Below are positions 54,055 to 63,734 of a DNA stretch of 64,000 nucleotides, piece by piece. The translations under genes and the position numbers were made by a program. Source of the stretch: Leptolinea tardivitalis. GTDB lineage: Bacteria > Chloroflexota > Anaerolineae > Anaerolineales > Anaerolineaceae. The notes beneath the pieces were generated by a model. It was not told the origin of the DNA, ran no database searches, and worked only from the letters and a program-made list of their open reading frames with translations. Each line of letters starts with the position of its first letter. Within the stretch, counting starts at the first letter, position 1. The DNA lies in the NCBI RefSeq assembly GCF_001050275.1, contig NZ_BBYA01000008.1, positions 1 to 64,000 of the forward strand, in the 5' to 3' direction.

Positions 54055-55122
54055 TTAATCTACAAGAATACCGCTTCCAGTATCCACACGGCCGATTTCC
54101 CAAACGGGTTGATCGTATGCCGCCGCTTTCTGGATAAATTCTGACGCTTTGTTTTCAGGAACACAAAGGAGCAGTCCACCGCTGGTCTGCGGGTCGAAAA
54201 GGAGCATTTGACGGGGTTCATCTATTTTTGGTGAGAAGGTCACATTTTCACCATACCCCAGCCGGTTATTGGCTGCTCCACCCGGGAATGTACCCATTAA
54301 AGCATATTTCATTACCCCATTAAGCAGAGGTATTTTATTCATATCGAAATGCATTTGCACCTTGCTGGCTTTGCTCATCTCAAATGCGTGTCCTATGAGA
54401 CTGTACCCTGTGATATCTGTTGCACCGGTCAGATTCATATCTCGAGCCAATTGAGAGGCTGTTTTGTTTAACTGTTTCATCCAATATACGGCTTCAGCCA
54501 CATCCTGTTCCTCTGCCTTTTCCTGTTTCAAAGCCGTGGTTGTAACACCAAAACCAAGCGGTTTGGTGATGAACAGACGGTCGCCGGGTCTGGCACCGCT
54601 TTTAGTGTAACTGCGGTTGTGGGGGACGAATCCCAGAACGGCCAGACCAAATTTCGGTTCCTTATCTTGAACGGTATGGCCGCCGGCAATTACTGTTCCG
54701 GCTTCGCGGGCTTTTTCTGCCCCACCGCGGATGATTTCAGTTGAAATTTCCAGCGGCAGGTCAGGTGGAAGAGCGGCAATATTCAATGCGAGGAAGGGCT
54801 CTCCACCCATGGCATACACATCTGACAGGCTGTTGGCAGCCGCAATCGCACCGTAATCATACGGGTCATCCACCACCGGTGTAAAAAAGTCGGTGGTGAA
54901 TACCAGATCACGGGTTTCATCCAGCTTCCAAACGGCGGCATCATCCGGGGTGTCCAACCCGACCAGCAGGTTAGGGAAGGACAATCCGCCGAATGTGTCT
55001 TTCAAAGGACGCAGAACCTGCGCCAACGCTTGCGCGTTTAATTTGGATGCTCAACCAGCGCAACTGGAGAGTGAGGTAAGCCGGATTTGCTTGCCAGATG
55101 TGGAACGAATGGCATTATCCAT
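54055..55122 (-). CDS. selD: Selenide, water dikinase SelD, with predicted selenocysteine
   Basis: Makes selenophosphate from selenide and ATP. The frame downstream of a TGA (55053-55051) gives the SelD core (FTTDFFTPVVDDPYDYGAIAAAN, IAGGHTVQDKEPKFG, FDPQTSGGLL). Reading through the TGA as selenocysteine restores the normal N-terminus from ATG 55122: IRLTSLSSCAGUASKL, with Sec24 in the place of the catalytic Cys17 of E. coli SelD and Lys27 in the place of Lys20. 355 residues then, matching the family length; a start after the TGA (TTG 55026) would lose the active site. A SECIS-like hairpin follows. A functional selA, selB and selC must exist elsewhere. Divergent from a PIG-L gene. Confidence 0.9.
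55020..55053 (-). promoter_or_regulatory. Sec codon TGA and candidate SECIS hairpin in selD
   Basis: UGA at 55053-55051. Sixteen nt beyond it starts GCGC-AAGCGTTG-GCGC, a small stem-loop (55035-55020). Bacterial SECIS elements sit at this distance from the UGA. Loop details are not decisive. Confidence 0.6.
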
Positions 55123-55140
55123 GCAACAAATTGTAACATG
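55120..55140. promoter_or_regulatory. Near-palindrome between divergent selD and PIG-L starts
   Basis: Symmetric blocks CATG, ACAA, TTGT and CATG (arms CATG-nn-ACAA-n-TTGT-nn-CATG) centred on 55130. Its left edge includes the selD start and its right edge the PIG-L ATG. It may be a shared operator. Confidence 0.4.
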
Positions 55141-55917
55141 ATGAATATGCCTCTGCCTGCCGACCGGGTGACCCGGTGGATATTTCTGTCTCCGCATCTT
55201 GATGATGCGGTCTTTTCGTGTGGTGGATTGATCTCTTACCTTTCTGATAATGGTGTGTCGGTTGAAATCTGGACGGTGTTCTCTGATCAGATGGAGGATG
55301 CCCGTCAACTGACAGATTATGCCCGTACACTCCATAACCGTTGGGGAACCGGTGATCATCCGTATGTTCTGCGCAAACAGGAGGATGCCAACGCGTGTCG
55401 CACAGTAGGTGCCCGCCAGCATCATCTCGGTTACCTGGATTGCATATATCGCTTCATACCCGGTTCGAGAGAGCCGGTTGTACTATCTGATGCTGAATTG
55501 CAGGGAACAGTAAAACCTCAAGAACAGCCTTTCATTGAGAAAATCGCGAGAGATTTAAAAACACGGATTACCGAGCCAACTGTATGGGTGTGTCCGTTAA
55601 GTCTGGGCAGCCATGTGGATCATCAGATCACACGTAAAGCTGCCGAGATGACTGGCAAGCTGATGCTTTATTACGCCGACCTGCCGTATGCTTTACCCAT
55701 GCCTCGCCAATCTATTTCAGGCATGATCCAGCTATCAATTGACGTTCCTGAGAAAAACATTCAAGACTGGGGACGGGCCAATCTGCAATACAGTTCACAG
55801 ATATCTTCTTTCTGGAAGAGTCCGGCTGACATGGCTGACCAATACTCCGCTTTTTTGCAGCTTTATAAAGGAATGCCTTTATGGCTGCCAAATCCGGGTG
55901 GGGAAGGTGGAAAGTAG
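55138..55917 (+). CDS. PIG-L/LmbE-family deacetylase
   Basis: Protein of 259 residues. Zinc motif FLSPHLDDAVFSCGG (HXDD) near residue 17 and a later His in LGSHVDHQITRKA. Members deacetylate GlcNAc-containing substrates, for example in GPI, mycothiol or bacillithiol synthesis; the substrate here cannot be told. Starts at ATG 55138, 55141 or 55147 (MPLPADRV); none has a convincing ribosome site. Only 15 nt separate it from the divergent selD start, so promoters must overlap coding sequence. Confidence 0.8.
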   Translation: MMNMPLPADRVTRWIFLSPHLDDAVFSCGGLISYLSDNGVSVEIWTVFSDQMEDARQLTDYARTLHNRWGTGDHPYVLRKQEDANACRTVGARQHHLGYLDCIYRFIPGSREPVVLSDAELQGTVKPQEQPFIEKIARDLKTRITEPTVWVCPLSLGSHVDHQITRKAAEMTGKLMLYYADLPYALPMPRQSISGMIQLSIDVPEKNIQDWGRANLQYSSQISSFWKSPADMADQYSAFLQLYKGMPLWLPNPGGEGGK

Positions 55918-55938: not shown

Positions 55939-56175
55939 ATGAATCGTCGCCGACCAGCCAGCACGGAATCGAACATCAACCTGTCTTCTCGTGAAATACA
56001 TGAAAAATTTTCGGTGATCCTCGATGAATTATCGCCTTTCGGGGTGTTTATCTCTCAGTTTATTTACATGGCGGGGTGGTTTTTCCCGGGGAATCAACTT
56101 CCGAAATCGTGGCAGCGAACGGCTGAATATCTGGAAAAAGCCGGCGAAGCAGAGGGTACCCATGACCTCTATTGA
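55939..56175 (+). CDS. Small protein, unknown
   Basis: Protein of 78 residues (start ATG 55939, MNRRRPAST). Amphipathic, with one hydrophobic stretch (about 36-50, FGVFISQFIYMAGWFFPG) and a Lys/Glu-rich C-terminus. A TATACT box lies about 12 nt upstream of the ATG, so the transcript may be nearly leaderless. The C-terminus overlaps the next gene by 14 nt. No family recognised. First gene of the membrane/ASKHA operon. Confidence 0.5.
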   Translation: MNRRRPASTESNINLSSREIHEKFSVILDELSPFGVFISQFIYMAGWFFPGNQLPKSWQRTAEYLEKAGEAEGTHDLY

Positions 56176-56917
56176 AGGCCTGATCGGGTTGGTCGTCATC
56201 GGTCTGGCAATTGCTTTCATGATTGTCTTTTCTGTACAAGACCGAAAAAGCAAAATTCCCTTGCGGCGGATTCCAGCTATGGAGCATCTTTCCCGGATGG
56301 TTGGGTTAGCTGTGGAAGAAGGCCGCCGTATCCATATCAGTTTTGGCCGCGGGAACTTCCTGGACTCTCATGCAGCCAGTACACTTACCAATACCGCCTT
56401 GTTAAAAGAAGTGTTGAAACAGTCTGCCGGAAGCGATCGACCACCGGCGATCACCAGCGGAGATGGGACTACTACACTGCTGGCAATTGATGTACTGTAC
56501 TCTACCCGCCGAGCCGGTATTATCGGTGACCGGGTCGATTCACGTCGCGGGCGTCTGTCTGGAGTCACACCGCTGTCGTATGCGGCCGGGATGCTGCCTT
56601 CGTTACACCAGGAACAGACCTCAATGATGGTGACAGGTGGTATGTTGGGCGCTGAACTGAACCTTATCTTGGATACCGCCGACGACGAATCGATTCATAT
56701 ATTGACAGCTTCTGATTCGCCTGTAGGGCAGGCAGTGGCTTTCTCAAGTCCGGGCGATGTGTTGCTGGGTGAAGAGATATTTGCCTTACCTGCCTATATG
56801 AATGCCGGCAGCATGTATCCGGCGAGCCTGTTGGCGGAAGATTCCCTGCGCTGGCTGTTGATTGTCTTTATAATTCTAGGTGCCATTTTACGCAGCATAG
56901 GATTGACCATTCTATGA
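56162..56917 (+). CDS. Membrane protein, DUF6754-like
   Basis: Protein of 251 residues. N-terminal membrane helix (about 5-25, IGLVVIGLAIAFMIVF), then a soluble domain with IPAMEHLSRMVGLAVEEGRRIHISFGRGNF, SGDGTTTLLAIDVL and SAYMNAG-like segments, and a C-terminal hydrophobic helix (about 228-248). It fits my memory of the DUF6754 family of Chloroflexota; no enzyme motif is visible. The start is ATG 56162 inside the upstream gene; it overlaps the next gene by 4 nt. Confidence 0.65.
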   Translation: MTSIEGLIGLVVIGLAIAFMIVFSVQDRKSKIPLRRIPAMEHLSRMVGLAVEEGRRIHISFGRGNFLDSHAASTLTNTALLKEVLKQSAGSDRPPAITSGDGTTTLLAIDVLYSTRRAGIIGDRVDSRRGRLSGVTPLSYAAGMLPSLHQEQTSMMVTGGMLGAELNLILDTADDESIHILTASDSPVGQAVAFSSPGDVLLGEEIFALPAYMNAGSMYPASLLAEDSLRWLLIVFIILGAILRSIGLTIL

Positions 56918-57540
56918 AAGCCCCTTTGAGCACTCTCATTGCCATCATCTGTTGCGCGGTTGTTTTGCTGGCGTATTTTCTACCTTTTGAGCCGGTTCAA
57001 AACATCAGCCAGCTTATCATTAATTGGGCCGTCTCGTTATCTGGCATCGCCATGTTGGTGGCGATTGTCTCATTGCTTTCATCCCACTGGCAGAAGATCC
57101 GCCAGAAACGATCATCAGACCGTTACAGCATTCTTGTGATATTCGGTTTTGGCCTTACATTCCTGATCGGGCTGGTTTTTGGTGGACCAGGGAGCCTGGA
57201 TTATCAGAACGTGGTTACCCATATGCTGCTGCCAATTGAAGCCGGCCTCCTGGGTGCATTGACCATTGGGCTAACGGTGGCTGCATTCCGGTTATACCGG
57301 GCCAACCGAGGTTGGATGACGATTGTGTTTGGAATTTCCACTCTGTTGTTTGTCCTGTTGAATTCTGGAATTTTCACCACAGGTACCGGATTGGATATCC
57401 CCCTGATTAAGAATGCTCTTGGTGTATTGCAGCGTTTACCTGATGCGGGCGGACGGGGTATCCTGCTGGGACTTGCCCTTGGAACAATCACAGCCGGTCT
57501 GCGGATTCTTCTGGGAATAGACCGTCCGTATAACAGTTAA
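56914..57540 (+). CDS. Polytopic membrane protein, unknown
   Basis: Protein of 208 residues with about six to seven hydrophobic segments (LIAIICCAVVLLAYF, SLSGIAMLVAIVSLL, SILVIFGFGLTFLIGLVF, and others). Short charged loops only. No catalytic motif. Coupled by 4 nt to the DUF6754-like gene and 4 nt before the zinc-ribbon gene. Confidence 0.6.
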   Translation: MKAPLSTLIAIICCAVVLLAYFLPFEPVQNISQLIINWAVSLSGIAMLVAIVSLLSSHWQKIRQKRSSDRYSILVIFGFGLTFLIGLVFGGPGSLDYQNVVTHMLLPIEAGLLGALTIGLTVAAFRLYRANRGWMTIVFGISTLLFVLLNSGIFTTGTGLDIPLIKNALGVLQRLPDAGGRGILLGLALGTITAGLRILLGIDRPYNS

Positions 57541-57544
57541 AACA

Positions 57545-59578
57545 ATGAACGATATCACCTGCCCAAATTGTGGAAGAAAGAACCTACCGGAAGCTGAATT
57601 CTGTGTGGAATGTCTGATGCCATTTAAGAATCGGACTGGTTCTACCTCCAAAAATGCAGATTCTCCTTCTCAGGAAACGCCCGACTGGCTTAAGAAAATC
57701 CGTGAAAAAAGCCATCTTGAAAAACCGGCTACACCGCCACTTGGTGCGTTTGGAGAAGCGGAAAATCGTCAATTTGGGGAGACGGAAAAGCCCGATGAAA
57801 TTCCTCAGTGGTTAAAGGAACTGCAGAAAACTGAATCGCCAGTACCGGATGAACCTGAAAAATCGGAGGTCGATTGGATCACCCGACTGCACGAAATATT
57901 ACCGGAAACTCCCAGGAGCGACAGCCCATCAACCACGTTGTATTCTGATGAAGAATTGGCGGCTATGGCAGCGGCTGCCAGAAAACTTGACGAGTTTAAT
58001 CGAGTAATTGAAGAGCAGGCTTCCACGCAACCGCTTGGTGTTCCCCCGGAACCGGCACCCACGGACTTCCATTTGGAGTCTTCGTCTCCTGCTGCGCCGG
58101 AATCACCCGTTGAACTGGAAGGATCAATATCTTCTTTTAAACCAGAACAGAATCAACCGGACTCTGCTAATCCTGAAGACATTACCAGGGATTCACACAT
58201 TGAAAAAGAACCGGTGCATATAGAATTAAAACCCACCGGCAATACCGAAGAATCCGTCCCCTGGATGCAAACACCGGTAATGGCTGAACCGGAACCTGTT
58301 TCCATTGACACTACTCCATCTGAACCGGTTGAACCGCAGCCGAACTCATTTGATATTTCTTCAGATAAATCGGAAACGCAATCCCTGGAATCCGGAATAC
58401 CTGCCGAAGAAAATTTACCTACTGAAAAGAAGAAATCCTTCTTTTCATCCTTGTTCCGAAAAGATGAAACAGATTCATCTGAAGATGCTGAAGACGAACC
58501 GGAAGACGAATCAGGTCAAAATGATGAAGCTGCCGCCAGAACTGAAGAAAAACCGGAACCATTAATACCTGAGAGCGTATTGCAGCCACAATACAACCGA
58601 TCTGTGGAATATTCTGGCCGTCTGGACATCAGTGAATCCCAGAAAGCCAGTATCCACTTATTAAAAAGCATGCTGATGGGCGAAATTCAACCTCCGGCTC
58701 CTACCGCTACACAATCGAAAATTAGCGGGAGGATGTTGCGATTATGTATCGGTATTCTTCTGTTGATCGTCATGCTCTTCCCACTGGCGACAGGATTTAT
58801 GTTGACAGACCAGCAGGCATTATTCTCTCCGGGGGTGGTATCCATGCGGACTGCTGTTAATGCGCTGCCAGAGAATTCACCTTTTCTGGTGATTACTGAT
58901 TTTGAGCCGGCTTTTGCCGGTGAATTGAAAGCGGCAGCCATCGGGGTCATTGATAACCTGATGATGAAGAACCTTAATCTGTCAGTGGTTTCAACAGTTC
59001 CTACCGGGCCTGCACTGGCCAGAGATTTAATTACATCTGTTCGGCAGGCGGCCTTTGCTTATCCGCCTGAGAAAATTTCCTATCTGGGTTATCTACCGGG
59101 TGGGACAACCGGCATGAAGGATTTCATTCATAATCCGCGTCAGGCCCTGCCTTTGCTGGATACCGGCCGGTATGCCTGGACTTACCCGGCCACTCAAGAT
59201 GTATTTTCAATAAACGATTATGCCGGTGTGTTGATAATCACAGAGAACACCGAAACCGGCCGTGCCTGGATCGAACAACTGCATGGGAATATGGCAGACA
59301 AACCGCTTTTGATGGTGGTGTCTGCGCAAAGTGCCCCATTAATGCGCCCCTACCTTGATTCTAAACAATTGAACGGTTTGATCGGCGGCCGGGTGGAAGG
59401 TGCCATGTATGACCGTATCATGGAAGCACCGGCCAGATCTCCGGTGATTACGGCTTCTTATCAGGCTGGCATGTTGGTGGTGGCTGTTCTTATCATTCTT
59501 GGCGGCATTTTTGGTTTGTTCCATGGTCTTTTCAGCAGCCGCTCTTCTTCCTCAAAGGAGAATTGGTATGTCAGCTGA
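57545..59578 (+). CDS. Zinc-ribbon protein with acidic linker and membrane anchors
   Basis: Protein of 677 residues. N-terminal zinc ribbon CPNCGRKNLPEAEFCVECLMPF (residues 6-27), then a long acidic, Pro/Ser/Glu-rich disordered region to about 390 (DEPEDESGQNDEAAARTEEKPEP), a membrane helix near 398-420, an extracytoplasmic domain (about 430-630) and a second helix near 638-660. The extracytoplasmic domain has no recognised enzyme motif. The layout suggests a cytoplasmic zinc-ribbon tail linked across the membrane to an outer domain. It is co-transcribed with the ASKHA gene two positions downstream. Function unknown. Confidence 0.65.
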   Translation: MNDITCPNCGRKNLPEAEFCVECLMPFKNRTGSTSKNADSPSQETPDWLKKIREKSHLEKPATPPLGAFGEAENRQFGETEKPDEIPQWLKELQKTESPVPDEPEKSEVDWITRLHEILPETPRSDSPSTTLYSDEELAAMAAAARKLDEFNRVIEEQASTQPLGVPPEPAPTDFHLESSSPAAPESPVELEGSISSFKPEQNQPDSANPEDITRDSHIEKEPVHIELKPTGNTEESVPWMQTPVMAEPEPVSIDTTPSEPVEPQPNSFDISSDKSETQSLESGIPAEENLPTEKKKSFFSSLFRKDETDSSEDAEDEPEDESGQNDEAAARTEEKPEPLIPESVLQPQYNRSVEYSGRLDISESQKASIHLLKSMLMGEIQPPAPTATQSKISGRMLRLCIGILLLIVMLFPLATGFMLTDQQALFSPGVVSMRTAVNALPENSPFLVITDFEPAFAGELKAAAIGVIDNLMMKNLNLSVVSTVPTGPALARDLITSVRQAAFAYPPEKISYLGYLPGGTTGMKDFIHNPRQALPLLDTGRYAWTYPATQDVFSINDYAGVLIITENTETGRAWIEQLHGNMADKPLLMVVSAQSAPLMRPYLDSKQLNGLIGGRVEGAMYDRIMEAPARSPVITASYQAGMLVVAVLIILGGIFGLFHGLFSSRSSSSKENWYVS

Positions 59579-60242
59579 TACGATCTGGACGATTACCGCT
59601 TTTGCTTTGACAGCCGGAGTAATTGTCTCATATCTGATTGGTGAGAAATATCCACCATTTAAAATCATCGCCAATCTGTTTATCGGCGCGGCAGCTGGTT
59701 ATGCAGCAACCGTTGCCATTTTCCAGGTGATCTATCCGCGTCTCATTGTCCCGTTCATTTTCCCCTCACTGGGTTTTTCGCAGATTACAGCCATTATTCC
59801 CCTGGTGCTGGCTTTTCTGCTGCTTTTCAAAGCCGTCCCTCGTTTATCAAAAGTAGGCAATGTGGCAACAGGTGTGATTGTTGGCGCAGCAGCCGGTGTA
59901 ATTATTGGAGGAGCGCTGCTGGGAACGATATTGACCCAAGCAAAAGCGGCCATCACTCTGTTTGATCCAGACCTGGGCTTGCAGTCAGGCCGGCTGGTAG
60001 ATGCCCTTTTCATGCTGCTTGGCACCATTTCTACGCTGGTCTATTTCCAATTTGGTGGAATTCGACGGCCGGGAAAAGCAGTTGAACGTCCAAAGGCAAC
60101 AAGGTTTCTTGCCGGTTTGGGAAAATTTTTTATCGCCATTACACTGGGTGCCTTATTTGCCGGGGTGATCTCCTCCACGATGGCTGTATTGGCGGAACGG
60201 TTGGGTTTCATCGTTCAAACCATACAAACCTGGATCCGGTAA
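59568..60242 (+). CDS. Polytopic membrane protein, unknown
   Basis: Protein of 224 residues with about six membrane segments. The start is ATG 59568, overlapping the previous gene by 11 nt, with AAAGGAG upstream; the longer frame from 59499 is rejected. Short loops rich in Gly and Ala, including two GAAAGV segments. No family recognised. Follows the zinc-ribbon gene and precedes the ASKHA gene by 3 nt. Confidence 0.6.
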   Translation: MSADTIWTITAFALTAGVIVSYLIGEKYPPFKIIANLFIGAAAGYAATVAIFQVIYPRLIVPFIFPSLGFSQITAIIPLVLAFLLLFKAVPRLSKVGNVATGVIVGAAAGVIIGGALLGTILTQAKAAITLFDPDLGLQSGRLVDALFMLLGTISTLVYFQFGGIRRPGKAVERPKATRFLAGLGKFFIAITLGALFAGVISSTMAVLAERLGFIVQTIQTWIR

Positions 60243-60245
60243 TCC

Positions 60246-61973
60246 ATGGAAATAAGTCCCTCTGAGATTGAATCTGTTCTCTCTGTAGATGTCGGGTCAG
60301 TGAACACCCGGGCTGTGTTGTTTGACCTTGTGGGTTCATCCTATCGCATGCTGGCGGCCAGCATGGTGCCCAGTACACATCTGGCACCTATACGGGATGT
60401 TCAGGAAGGGGTAATCTCAGCCATTCATCATCTGGAAGAGATTACCGGCCGGATTCTTCTGGATGCCAACCATAAATTGATCCTGCCCACTTCGCTCGAG
60501 GGGACGGGCGTTGACCATATTCTGGCAAGCAGTTCTGCCGGCCTTGATATCCGGATTGTCACCGTTGGTCTGTTGAATGAATATTCTCTGGCTAATATCG
60601 ACAGGTTGACCGGTGGTACCTATGCACGCATTGTTGACAGGTTCTCTCTTAACGATCCCCGCAAACCTGAAGACCGGTTGAATGCGTTCATTCAGTCTGA
60701 ACCTGACCTGGTGATTATCGGGGGAGGAACCAACCATGGGGCAGGACGGGCTGTTTTACGCATGGTTGAGCAGGTACATCTAGCAGTACGAGCCAGCCAG
60801 TCCACCAGGCGGCCGGAAATTCTGTATGCAGGAAATGAAACACTAAAAGAAAAAGTGGATGAAACTCTGGGTAAACTGACAACAGTGGTTACTGCTCCCA
60901 ATGTTTTTCCGTTTTCTTCGTCTTCTGATATGGGACCTGTGGAAGAAATTTTGACTCAGGTTTTGAATTCCATTCGAGCTGGAAGATATAAAGGATTTTC
61001 TGAACTCGAAAAAATGACCGGTCAGCCCATCATCTCTACTGCCGGTGCAGAAAGCCGGATCATTCGGTTCCAGAGCCTGCAACAGAGTTCGGAGAAAACC
61101 GTTCTGGGCATAAATATCGGATCATCTGCTTCCCATTTCATTACCGCCAACCGGGGGGATGTGCATACATCAGTCTATGGCGGTCTGGGAGTGGGGGAGG
61201 CAATGGCTGAAACAGTAGACCGGCTCGGGCTGGATGCCATTACTCGCTGGCTGCCGATGGATATTAAAGGCAATTCTGCCAGAGACTACATCTGGCAAAA
61301 GTCATTGTTTCCTTCCACAATTCCAATGGATGGTGAGACATTGGAAATTGAACAGGCCGTAGCCCGGGCGATTCTGGCGGAAATGAGGCGAGACTATCTT
61401 GGTCTGCCTTCGGCCTGTCCGGATAATTTTGAACCGGTGCTGGTCAGTGGCGCGGTCATTGCCCAGGCCCCCACATTTCAACAATCCTTATTAATGGTGC
61501 TGGATGGATTGCAACCTACCGGTGTAACGACCATATTTTGCGACCGTTATGGGCTGCTTTCGGCGCTTGGATCGGCAGCCGTTACGAATCCGACGTTAGT
61601 GGTTCAGGTGTTGGAAAGTGGTATTTTGACAAATCTGGGGACGATCATTTCACCGATGATCAAGGCAGCCCAGGGAGAAACTGTATTGCATGTACGTCTG
61701 TCTGAAGATAATGGCGTGAATCATGAGTATGACATCAGGAAAGGTGACATTGTTCGGTTGCCGCTGGAATTGAACAAAACAGCCAGACTTTCCATCAAGC
61801 CTCTTAAACGAATGGACAATTTTACCGGTTCGCGAAACCTGAAAGTGGTGGGCGGAGAACTTGGTCTGATTATCGACATGCGTGGACGGCCGATCAATCT
61901 ATCATCTGATCCAACAGTCAGATTGGAAAACAGCATCCGTTGGACCCGGTCCTTACAGGAGGTTCTCTCATGA
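60246..61973 (+). CDS. ASKHA-family ATPase, glutamate-mutase-L (MutL)-like
   Basis: Protein of 575 residues with the sugar kinase/Hsp70/actin fold. Phosphate-1 motif VLSVDVGSVNTRAVLFDLV at the start, a second similar motif KTVLGINIGSSASHFITANRG near residue 285, and the adenosine motif EPVLVSGAVIAQAP near 400. It matches the glutamate mutase MutL group, which in clostridia accompanies the B12-dependent mutase as a reactivase or chaperone. No mutase subunit is present here; instead it sits in a membrane operon, so a different role is likely. It overlaps the next gene by 4 nt. Confidence 0.8.
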   Translation: MEISPSEIESVLSVDVGSVNTRAVLFDLVGSSYRMLAASMVPSTHLAPIRDVQEGVISAIHHLEEITGRILLDANHKLILPTSLEGTGVDHILASSSAGLDIRIVTVGLLNEYSLANIDRLTGGTYARIVDRFSLNDPRKPEDRLNAFIQSEPDLVIIGGGTNHGAGRAVLRMVEQVHLAVRASQSTRRPEILYAGNETLKEKVDETLGKLTTVVTAPNVFPFSSSSDMGPVEEILTQVLNSIRAGRYKGFSELEKMTGQPIISTAGAESRIIRFQSLQQSSEKTVLGINIGSSASHFITANRGDVHTSVYGGLGVGEAMAETVDRLGLDAITRWLPMDIKGNSARDYIWQKSLFPSTIPMDGETLEIEQAVARAILAEMRRDYLGLPSACPDNFEPVLVSGAVIAQAPTFQQSLLMVLDGLQPTGVTTIFCDRYGLLSALGSAAVTNPTLVVQVLESGILTNLGTIISPMIKAAQGETVLHVRLSEDNGVNHEYDIRKGDIVRLPLELNKTARLSIKPLKRMDNFTGSRNLKVVGGELGLIIDMRGRPINLSSDPTVRLENSIRWTRSLQEVLS

Positions 61974-63022
61974 TGTATGCTCCGGTTGTACATTACCTGA
62001 AACAGACAAATATTCGCCGATTACGGTTGTTGCCAGTACCAGGCCGTTTACTCGTTTCTCCCGGACAAAAAGTATCACCCATGGATTCTGTGGCGGAAGC
62101 TCCCAACCCGAGTGGACATTTTTTCCTCGACATACGAAAAGCGTTAAAAGTTGATACGGCAACAGCGGATGAGTTAATCCAACGAAAAAAAGGGGAACGC
62201 CTGGCCAAAGGGGATATCCTTGCGGAAACTGGCGGCGCTTTCTCACGGGTTGTAAGAGCGCCTGTGGATTGCCAGGTGACAGAAATAAATGCCGGAGTCA
62301 TGATCATGGAGACTCAAGGCGAACCTGTCAGAATACCGGCAGGCCTGCCGGGCTTTATTCACAGCCTGGAAGGGGATAAAGGTGTTACCATTGAATCAGG
62401 TGGTGCCCTGGTACAGGGCGTTTGGGGCAACAACCGGACTGATAGTGGATTACTTGTTGTACTCTGCGATTCGCCCGACCAGGAGTTGACGGTGAAACAA
62501 CTGGAAGCCAGTGCCCGTGGATCGGTTGCCGTAGCCGGTTATTGTTTATCCGGCGAGGTCATCCGACGGGCGGCTGAAATGGAGTTGCACGGACTGATTC
62601 TCTCTGCCATCAACCCGGATCTGATCCATCAAGTCAACAATCTTACTTTCCCGGTTATTCTCATTGAAGGATTTGGAAGAATACCCATGAACATGGCAGC
62701 GTATTCCATCTTTCATGAGAATGAACGCCATGATGCTGCCTTACATGCCCGACCGTGGGACCATATGACAGGTGAACGCCCCGAAGTGTTGATCCCATCA
62801 CCAAATCAGGCGTTGCCGCCGCCAGAAGTGGATGAATTCAGTCCGGGACAGATTGTGCATATAAAAATGCCCCCATATTCCGGAGAAGTTGGCACGATTC
62901 TTGCAATGACTCAAGGATTGACGAACCTATCAAACGGGCTGCGCGTGCCGGCTGCGGTGTTGCGCAAACAAAATGGCGAACAAATCACCGTACCGCTGGC
63001 AAATCTGGAGCTGATCATCTGA
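61970..63022 (+). CDS. Beta-rich protein with lipoyl/KOW-like segments, unknown
   Basis: Protein of 350 residues, coupled to the ASKHA gene (ATGA overlap, AGGAGG upstream). Segments resembling a biotinyl/lipoyl-like hammerhead occur: GRLLVSPGQKVSPMDSVAEA, AKGDILAETGGAFSRVVRAPVDCQVTEI. The C-terminus has a KOW-like GQIVHIKMPPYSGEVGTILAM. The biotin/lipoyl Lys motif itself is absent. No signal peptide or membrane helix. Function unknown; likely partner of the ASKHA ATPase. Confidence 0.65.
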   Translation: MMYAPVVHYLKQTNIRRLRLLPVPGRLLVSPGQKVSPMDSVAEAPNPSGHFFLDIRKALKVDTATADELIQRKKGERLAKGDILAETGGAFSRVVRAPVDCQVTEINAGVMIMETQGEPVRIPAGLPGFIHSLEGDKGVTIESGGALVQGVWGNNRTDSGLLVVLCDSPDQELTVKQLEASARGSVAVAGYCLSGEVIRRAAEMELHGLILSAINPDLIHQVNNLTFPVILIEGFGRIPMNMAAYSIFHENERHDAALHARPWDHMTGERPEVLIPSPNQALPPPEVDEFSPGQIVHIKMPPYSGEVGTILAMTQGLTNLSNGLRVPAAVLRKQNGEQITVPLANLELII

Positions 63023-63054
63023 GGTTGCCCATCCGGATATCAGGAGAAGAAAAA

Positions 63055-63687
63055 ATGTCATACCCTGAAAATCAAAATCAATACGAAGAATTCGATGAAT
63101 ATGAAAGCGATGATCTCTCCGGAGAGAAGGCGGCTAAACCCAGCAACCGTACTTTTTTCATTTCCTTTGGCCTGATTGCGGTGATTTTTGCCCTCACCCT
63201 GGCTGCTCTGGCTTTTGTGGTATTTTACGTACTCCCTCAATCCCGTGAAAAAAGGGAAGCACAGAATATTCAGATCTATGCAGCCAATACGGCGACTGCA
63301 TTAGCGGCTACCCAGCTTTCTGAAAGCCTGGCGATGGCTGCGGCTGCTACCGAAGAACCAACAGCCACGATCGCTCCCACCTTCACACAGCTGGCCCCCG
63401 AAGCAACAGCCACGCCTGAACTTGTGGAAGTGGTTGTAGGAACTCCAGAAGTGGTGACGGCGGAAGCCGTTGGCGGGGGAATGGACAGCCGCACGGCGAC
63501 ACTGGCTGCCTTGCAAACTCAGGCTGTGAGTGCCCGCCTGACGGCTGTTGCAGAAGGCCGGGTTACTACGGCATTACCTCAGACAGGAATTATGGATGGC
63601 GTCGGCCTGCCAGGATTGGCCGGATTGACGGCCGCTCTGGGTGTTGTGATCATCGCAGCACGTAAGTTACGCTCATCCAATAAATAA
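63055..63687 (+). CDS. Membrane protein with LPQTG-like C-terminal sorting signal
   Basis: Protein of 210 residues. Polar, acidic N-terminus, a membrane segment at about 35-62, an Ala/Thr/Glu-rich stretch, then LPQTG (residues 174-178) followed by a hydrophobic segment (GLPGLAGLTAALGVVIIAA) and a basic tail ARKLRSSNK. The C-terminus has the layout of a sortase signal, but the protein also has an N-terminal membrane helix instead of a classical signal peptide. No sortase gene is in the window. The start is ATG 63055 (AGGAGA upstream). Last gene of the operon. Confidence 0.7.
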   Translation: MSYPENQNQYEEFDEYESDDLSGEKAAKPSNRTFFISFGLIAVIFALTLAALAFVVFYVLPQSREKREAQNIQIYAANTATALAATQLSESLAMAAAATEEPTATIAPTFTQLAPEATATPELVEVVVGTPEVVTAEAVGGGMDSRTATLAALQTQAVSARLTAVAEGRVTTALPQTGIMDGVGLPGLAGLTAALGVVIIAARKLRSSNK

Positions 63688-63697
63688 AGAGGAAAAT

Positions 63698-63734
63698 AAA
63701 AGCCCTGACTTCTAAAAGAGTCAGGGCTTTTTTT
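63698..63734. terminator. Bidirectional terminator between operon end and phosphomutase gene
   Basis: A 13-bp stem AAAAGCCCTGACT / AGTCAGGGCTTTT with an 8-nt loop, followed by T-rich runs on both strands. It separates the convergent LPQTG gene and the phosphohexomutase gene. Confidence 0.92.

Follow-up and report, generated by a model that had tools for sequence, protein, structure and literature searches.

What does an ATPase-like protein of the MutL family do in an operon of membrane proteins? The question is raised by eight genes at positions 55939-63687 of a 64,000-nucleotide (nt) stretch of DNA from Leptolinea tardivitalis (contig NZ_BBYA01000008.1, positions 1 to 64,000), which is called the window below. 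An initial annotation had described seven same-strand genes with overlaps or small gaps, followed 32 nt on by a gene for an LPQTG protein. All of these coordinates were confirmed when the reading frames were checked, giving eight frames on the + strand (g1 to g8) that mostly overlap or lie a few nt apart. Conservation of the gene order in relatives indicates that this arrangement is not due to chance. Two of the proteins exceed their Pfam cut-offs under the names already proposed for them, g2 as DUF6754 (PF20539; 57.5 bits against 27) and g6 as MutL (PF13941; 172.3 against 27). The genes make up two modules, a membrane module (g2-g5) and an ATPase module (g6-g7, with the small g1). We read the whole, at rather less than even confidence, as a modular ATP-driven importer whose substrates would be small organic molecules, peptide-like compounds or N-acyl amino acids.

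Conservation and copy number of the two modules

Within the class Anaerolineae, MutL was found over its cut-off in 72 of 120 genomes and DUF6754 in 59 of 120, the latter nearly always as a single copy (58 of 60 genomes have a single match); the window's own genome has a single MutL match. The expectation, set beforehand, that the genes are kept together in relatives was borne out, as MutL lies 2,648-8,166 nt (median 3,854) downstream of DUF6754 on the same strand in 45 of 59 class genomes. For this count DUF6754 was taken at E 0.001, with one place per genome and the window's own genome left out. In 13 of the 59 MutL is on a different contig, and in one none exceeds the cut-off.

Synteny was established by mapping profiles onto all six frames, because calling genes by the longest reading frame gives spurious frames in GC-rich DNA. 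Forty class loci were hand-picked from the PF13941 and PF20539 matches, and g2 (within the locus in 33), g3 (33), g4 (38), g5 (34), g6 (40) and g7 (39) were recovered in them; the order g2-g3-g4-g5-g6-g7 was invariable wherever the genes were present. Reduced sets occur in L062-L064 and L066, where a short g4-like gene stands with g6 and g7, and g2, g3 and g5 are not in the fetched locus. Across the sample of the phylum Chloroflexota, DUF6754 is present in 46 of 201 genomes. In 20 further Chloroflexota loci, chosen by their DUF6754 matches, g7 is beside the operon in nine and not beside it in nine (including L072-L075), and two are cut by contig ends.

The initial picture has to be corrected in its range, since relatives reach many phyla as well as archaea. 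A collection of species genomes scanned with the g6 alignment gave at least 594 pattern matches, of which 565 were relatives. The 80 best were kept; besides Chloroflexota they include Armatimonadetes, Bacillota, WOR-3, TA06, Brocadiaceae, Scalindua, Planctomycetota, Poribacteria, Latescibacterota and archaea, among the last Candidatus Culexarchaeum nevadense. Of the 80 loci, 40 bear no Chloroflexota name, and 37 of these were studied (L141, L148 and L159 were left out). DUF6754 is found in 36 of the 37 non-Chloroflexota genomes holding g6, and in none of 14 control genomes. Both blocks are in view in 12 of the 37 loci and may stand in either order, with g6-g7 first in L132, L140, L144, L149, L155, L158, L165 and L171, and g2-g3-g4-g5 first in L138, L143, L151 and L156, some of which carry two g6-g7 pairs. 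Because DUF6754 scores 395.4 bits in L132, a Brocadiaceae locus, the distant members are, on these profile scores, the canonical form of the system and the window version a divergent branch.

In some genomes the membrane module is multiplied. DUF6754 matches number 27 in G319, a Bacillota bin, seven in G340 (Culexarchaeum) and six in G317 (TA06), with one to three in the remaining 33 positive non-Chloroflexota genomes. Among 26 genomes around G319, ten carry DUF6754 (seven matches in G346, four each in G359 and G364), and among 26 around G340 five do, with 7, 7, 6, 5 and 4 matches. Most of the copies fetched are within g2-g3-g4-g5 sets, and several are contig-cut or irregular (e.g. L229, L231, L285). 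The g6 gene is single in G340, G317, G365, G366 and G369, and in G370, where it is split over two contigs. The ratio of DUF6754 to g6 is thus 7:1, 7:1, 6:1, 5:1 and 4:1 in five related archaeal genomes (the last with the split g6), and 6:1 in G317. The paralogues of G365 are not a binning artefact, because four of its seven DUF6754 genes share one 1.08 Mb contig. For these archaea and for G317, the simplest account is that one ATPase module is shared.

Predicted architecture and proposed mechanism

The coordinates and predicted features of the operon are collected in Table 1; hydropathy also gives two transmembrane (TM) segments each for g2, g4 and g8 of the window.

Table 1. The operon of the window: genes, terminator and basis of each description
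Feature	Positions	Strand	Basis
g1, small protein, 78 amino acids (aa)	55939-56175	+	family placement by position and weak similarity
g2, DUF6754 protein: TM, Rossmann-like domain (predicted cytoplasmic), TM	56162-56917	+	PF20539, AlphaFold2, positive-inside rule
g3, polytopic, 6 predicted TM, N-in	56914-57540	+	hydropathy
g4, putative zinc ribbon, long acidic Pro-rich linker, TM, predicted extracytoplasmic Rossmann-like domain, TM	57545-59578	+	
g5, polytopic, 6 predicted TM, N-out in window	59568-60242	+	hydropathy
g6, MutL/GlmL-like ASKHA protein, extra C-terminal domain of ~120 aa with motif DxRGRP	60246-61973	+	PF13941
g7, barrel-sandwich (NqrA/RnfC/lipoyl-like) domain, alpha/beta middle, C-terminal KOW domain	61970-63022	+	
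g8, two-TM protein: Ala/Thr-rich middle, LPQTG, hydrophobic stretch, basic tail; accessory	63055-63687	+	
Intrinsic-terminator-like hairpin, end of operon	63698-63731	+	14 pairs, 6 GC pairs, T-run

The AlphaFold2 models of g2 (pLDDT 94.6, pTM 0.88) and of the g4 core (58697-59575; pLDDT 90.5, pTM 0.85) both consist of a TM segment, a six-stranded alpha/beta domain and a second TM segment. The positive-inside rule, applied to homologues from the non-Chloroflexota loci (some loci entering twice and kinship ignored, as also in the set of 149 g6 sequences used below), gives N-out for g2 in 63 of 76 (N-in 5, tie 8), which predicts its domain to lie inside, and N-in for g4 in 55 of 68 (N-out 10, tie 3), which predicts its domain to lie outside. 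The N-terminal stretch of the L132 g2, which by eye resembles a signal peptide and an extracellular domain, fits an inside position of the DUF6754 domain. The two are therefore predicted to be TM-Rossmann-TM proteins of opposite orientation. Between them lies g3, whose homologues (n=70) have six TM segments in 23 and five in 33 and are N-in in 57, with conserved Arg residues in an alignment of 52 rows.

The g6 protein belongs to the same ASKHA family as GlmL/MutL (PF13941; NF040745, NF040744, TIGR01319). It differs in its extra C-terminal domain, in standing with a membrane module and in that no glutamate mutase exceeds its cut-off in 44 genomes; a GlmL-type MutL protein aligns to the g6 alignment only up to column 468 of 608. 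The signatures DxGSTTTK, VDIGGATTD and GSGG, seen in distant g6 proteins, are those of ASKHA ATPases and suggest that ATP is used. Two other contexts of MutL were noticed in the class. One is a second type of long protein, with open frames of 901-1273 aa; in that of L006 (1453-4545, - strand) Pfam recognises MutL (PF13941, 310 bits) in the C-terminal half and, at E 0.001, no family in the first ~500 residues. The other is a GlmL-like MutL gene (L002:1432-3974; 557 bits) followed by a gene of the octopine/nopaline dehydrogenase type, a context unlike either that of glutamate mutase or that of the membrane system.

The g7 protein is the candidate adaptor. It had been called lipoyl/KOW-like, and the KOW half of that name holds, with profile matches to Spt5, NusG and L24 KOW domains (best 4.1e-6); the top row of the same profile list is a short lysozyme match that is probably due to chance. 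The other half stays below the Pfam cut-offs, as RnfC_N reaches 16.1 bits in the window and 25.4 in L132 against 25.6, and NQRA_N 19.3 bits in L132 against 25 (an NqrA profile match has E 0.045). The predicted barrel-sandwich domain nonetheless resembles those of NqrA and RnfC, from which g7 differs by its C-terminal KOW domain. Symbiobacterium-like loci (L151, L143, L156, L288) have two consecutive g6-g7 pairs, the first g7 of which is longer (~440-471 aa), with an extra barrel-sandwich domain apparent by eye.

From these parts we infer how an importer could be built. Within a module the two oppositely oriented TM-Rossmann-TM proteins would flank two polytopic ones, g3 and g5, which would form the pathway. 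The extracytoplasmic domain of g4 would meet the substrate outside, as the outer receptor, and the cytoplasmic domain of g2 would be the inner docking site for g6 and g7. With g1, these two would serve as motor and adaptor, and ATP would drive the cycle from the cytoplasm. One or a few ATPase modules would be shared where membrane modules are many, and the single-copy system of the window's class may serve one general substrate. A bolder form of the proposal, which we hold with more doubt, is that there is a class of primary active transporters, in bacteria and archaea, with an ASKHA (actin/Hsp70-type) ATPase in place of the ABC motor. A single ATPase-adaptor pair would then energise many interchangeable four-subunit modules, each with a peptide-like or N-acyl amino acid substrate of its own.

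Two known kinds of transporter come nearest to this logic. In group II ECF transporters several dedicated membrane parts draw on one ATPase module. The system described here is similar in its apparent sharing, which is clean in archaea and G317, but its replicated part is a set of four proteins, its ratios are unclean in Bacillota, and by Pfam the eight window proteins contain no EcfT or S-component family. ABC importers combine a polytopic pair, an extracytoplasmic domain and a nucleotide-binding protein in the cytosol, and so, by prediction, does this system. Its ATPase is of the ASKHA and not the ABC type, however (ABC_tran had no match up to E 1 in any of the eight window proteins), and its extracytoplasmic domain is Rossmann-like and anchored in the membrane on both sides. 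The annotation had spoken of an ATP-driven membrane process that nobody had described; its novelty stands for the literature searched, in which we found no mention of DUF6754, PF20539 or PF13941 and no description of the system, and its ATP-driven nature is read from the ASKHA signatures. Passages of one paper (PMC5167688) concern glutamate mutase and mismatch-repair MutL.

Importer, envelope machine or gated path

The genes beside the multiplied modules may point to a substrate class. In G319, where 23 of the 27 DUF6754 places were fetched, an amidohydrolase is directly downstream of g5 in five of the 23 modules (L207, L214, L215, L217 and L286; gaps of 3-73 nt), against 0.31-0.45 expected (P 1.2e-5 to 7.5e-5) from at least 51 amidohydrolase intervals (75 were also tried) and an assumed 3,800 genes. 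A D-aminoacylase-like gene is among the neighbours of the G319 modules. Other hydrolases near modules are of the M19 (L215), creatininase (L214), beta-lactamase (L218), M24 (L280) and M55 (L288) types, and FTCD is near the module in L208. The ATPase module has similar company: in L151 the gene after a g6-g7 pair encodes an amidohydrolase, and in L166 an M55 D-aminopeptidase gene comes ~400 nt behind such a pair. Next to archaeal modules stand genes for an M24 protein (L307), an S-Me-THD-like protein (L290), an M28 peptidase together with an amidohydrolase (L295) and, in L308, TldD/PmbA, a DUF885 protein and a further amidohydrolase; most of them are encoded on the opposite strand. The 30 neighbour proteins submitted to Pfam, whose named families include Amidohydro_1/3, were chosen by eye and so give no frequency; the remaining identities were read by eye from the sequence starts.

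A good deal weighs against the importer reading. Its transport, its substrate binding and its ATPase activity are all predicted, as are the complex, the coupling and the class of substrate. Among the neighbours there are also unrelated genes, for MatE (L211), a flavin reductase (L228) and an acyl-CoA dehydrogenase (L227), besides a SelA-like protein, an aminotransferase and one protein without a match, and in Chloroflexota no conserved catabolic neighbour was recognised. The chosen hydrolase families fill 6 of 11 same-strand +1 slots in G319 against 6 of 93 other slots of these loci, but they were picked after the neighbours had been seen and the queries include some of those neighbours; in other Bacillota they fill one slot of five, and in archaea none of nine. 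The modules themselves are often apart. In 25 of the 37 non-Chloroflexota loci g2-g5 are not near g6, on contigs that are often short, and in 11 of the 37, many of them from Armatimonadetes, g7 is not beside g6.

The copy numbers and the proteins add to this. A clean pattern of sharing is confined to the archaea and G317, and the relation of g6 to g2 is mixed in Bacillota, where G319 has four full-length g6 genes (two of them strong) and partial pieces, and the ratio of g6 to g2 is near one in others (3 to 3 in G323, 4 to 7 in G346, 3 to 4 in G359 and G364). Full-length g6 even exceeds g2 in G329 and G333 (3 to 1) and in G336 (3 to 2). The number of TM segments and the topology of g5, one of the two putative pathway proteins, are uncertain: its homologues (n=67) have one to seven segments by hydropathy, most often three, mostly three to five and six in one, and are N-in in 31, N-out in 33 and tied in three (the family alignment has 53 rows). 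The best structural matches of the supposed receptor, g4, are general Rossmann or RCK-type domains, and no substrate-binding-protein fold is among those listed, a listing that cannot exclude one. In g6, 133 of 149 aligned sequences carry the phosphate-2 Asp, but the window protein has Asn there, its motif reading INIGSSASH where many distant relatives have VDIGGATTD. Because of this replacement the window copy may hydrolyse ATP poorly or may have lost hydrolysis.

Some of the same observations would suit a machine of the cell envelope, in which g6 acts in a chaperone-like way and inserts, exchanges or recycles lipids, cofactors or membrane proteins in g2-g5 in an ATP-dependent assembly or remodelling process. 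We consider this unlikely, while giving it serious weight. GlmL and other reactivases are thought to act as chaperone-like ASKHA ATPases, and g6 is a clear relative of the reactivase-type MutL/GlmL proteins, three distant members scoring 143-236 bits to GlmL-type models. The single copy of DUF6754 in nearly all of the class, the genomes in which g6 is as frequent as g2 or more so, and the LPxTG-like protein and long-linker zinc-ribbon protein of Chloroflexota would also be at home in an envelope role. Four to seven, and up to 27, divergent membrane modules, some of them beside catabolic genes, are on the other hand unlike a housekeeping machine.

A sensory or gating complex would be a further departure from the importer, and an improbable one. 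Here ligands bound by the Rossmann domains of g2 (inside) and g4 (outside) would open or close a route for ions or solutes through g3 and g5, and g6 would regulate it depending on nucleotide. The precedent is the gating of K+ channels by RCK domains, and VIA-align matches g2 to the RCK domain of KtrA (Z 10.4, root-mean-square deviation (rmsd) 2.9 over 116 residues) and g4 to that of MthK (Z 8.7, rmsd 3.3 over 125 residues); the first strand of g2 ends in an invariant Gly, which also agrees. General Rossmann enzymes score about equally, however (1kjn gives Z 9.9 with g2 and 9.3 with g4), so that these values may reflect merely a common arrangement, and Foldseek found no match to either model below E 1e-3 in the PDB. 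A sequence match to a solved RCK domain is likewise lacking, as nothing useful came from comparing the four membrane subunits with solved structures by sequence (best E 0.47). In KtrA and MthK, too, a Rossmann-like domain is linked to a membrane protein, but here it sits between two TM segments of the same chain. The shared structural neighbours, such as 1kjn, and the predicted topologies also suggest the idea, and only the idea, of an inverted duplication of a unit of Rossmann-2TM and polytopic protein; profile comparisons gave probabilities of 6.7% for g3 with g5 and 1.3% for g2 with g4, and homology is not shown by either.

A GlmL-like system for reactivating a cobalamin enzyme, with an attachment to the membrane, is what membership of g6 in PF13941 might first call to mind, yet it is hardly credible and largely refuted, since glutamate mutase (PF06368) exceeds its cut-off in none of 44 genomes (the window's own included; two matches are sub-threshold), as the initial annotation had anticipated in a test set in advance, and all GlmL, Or-4 and glmL_fam scores are below the NCBIfam cut-offs (475, 600; subfamily 204), at 68.6, 39.9 and 47.2 in the window and at most 235.9, 214.9 and 165.4 in L132, L151 and L166. 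No B12 enzyme was seen among the 30 neighbour proteins chosen by eye, glutamate mutase being the one B12 enzyme that was searched for.

Variable parts, surroundings and wider meaning

Around the conserved core some parts vary. The g4 protein had been described as a zinc ribbon with a disordered linker and two membrane helices. The two helices are predicted by hydropathy, and Zn_Ribbon_1 falls short of its Pfam cut-off (22.9 bits against 25). In 12 non-Chloroflexota loci g4 is 269-281 aa long and made up of TM, domain and TM only, with the zinc ribbon and the ~370-residue linker absent; the portion common to these relatives is 58697-59578. A second correction to the initial picture is that, in the loci examined, the zinc ribbon and linker, like the LPxTG gene, were seen in Chloroflexota only. 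For g8, LPXTG_anchor is the sole NCBIfam cut-off met in the window, narrowly (16.3 against 15.9 bits). Of 43 Chloroflexota loci, 18 have a reading frame with an LPxTG-like tail close to where g7 ends (20 pattern matches, two of them spurious), and the g8 profile has no match in the non-Chloroflexota loci mapped. In the window's class these three additions hint at extra anchoring.

The small first gene needs a correction too, as it occupies the place of a real small-protein family in relatives. This family, of ~105-125 aa, accompanies the system, and 110 reading frames were found by an iterated profile. In Chloroflexota they are directly before g2 in 71 of 72 cases; outside the phylum they stand before g6 (21), before g2 (8) or beside neither (9). 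The g1-like gene is before g2, as in Chloroflexota, with g6 elsewhere, in eight genomes (L191, L193, L196-L201), mostly of Armatimonadetes. The g1 of the window is the only match there of the small-protein profile, at E 0.05-0.16 and so below significance, and its putative membership rests mainly on its position. It was taken as 55951-56172, without the first four residues, in the Pfam, NCBIfam, PIG-L and PADLOC searches; 55939 is the better start.

Upstream, 21 nt before g1, lies a gene for a PIG-L type de-N-acetylase (55087-55917), which may be co-transcribed in this genome. As a member of the operon it was rejected, a query with it having found no relative in loci L002-L071. Downstream of the operon a phosphoglucomutase-type gene runs in the opposite direction. 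A role in anti-phage defence was also considered and is unsupported by PADLOC, which gave no convincing match for the eight window proteins and two relatives (one hit of 14.7 bits).

If the transporter reading is true, the system would add a mechanism to the few known for ATP-driven membrane transport. The groups concerned, including Chloroflexota, Planctomycetota and archaea, are common in sediments, anammox sludge and hot springs, and their nutrient uptake is poorly known. The genomes with many copies make the function testable, as a hydrolase beside a copy of the module proposes the substrate of that module. Should the system instead be a remodelling machine, it would nonetheless be a membrane system conserved across bacteria and archaea and equipped with an ATPase-like protein of its own.

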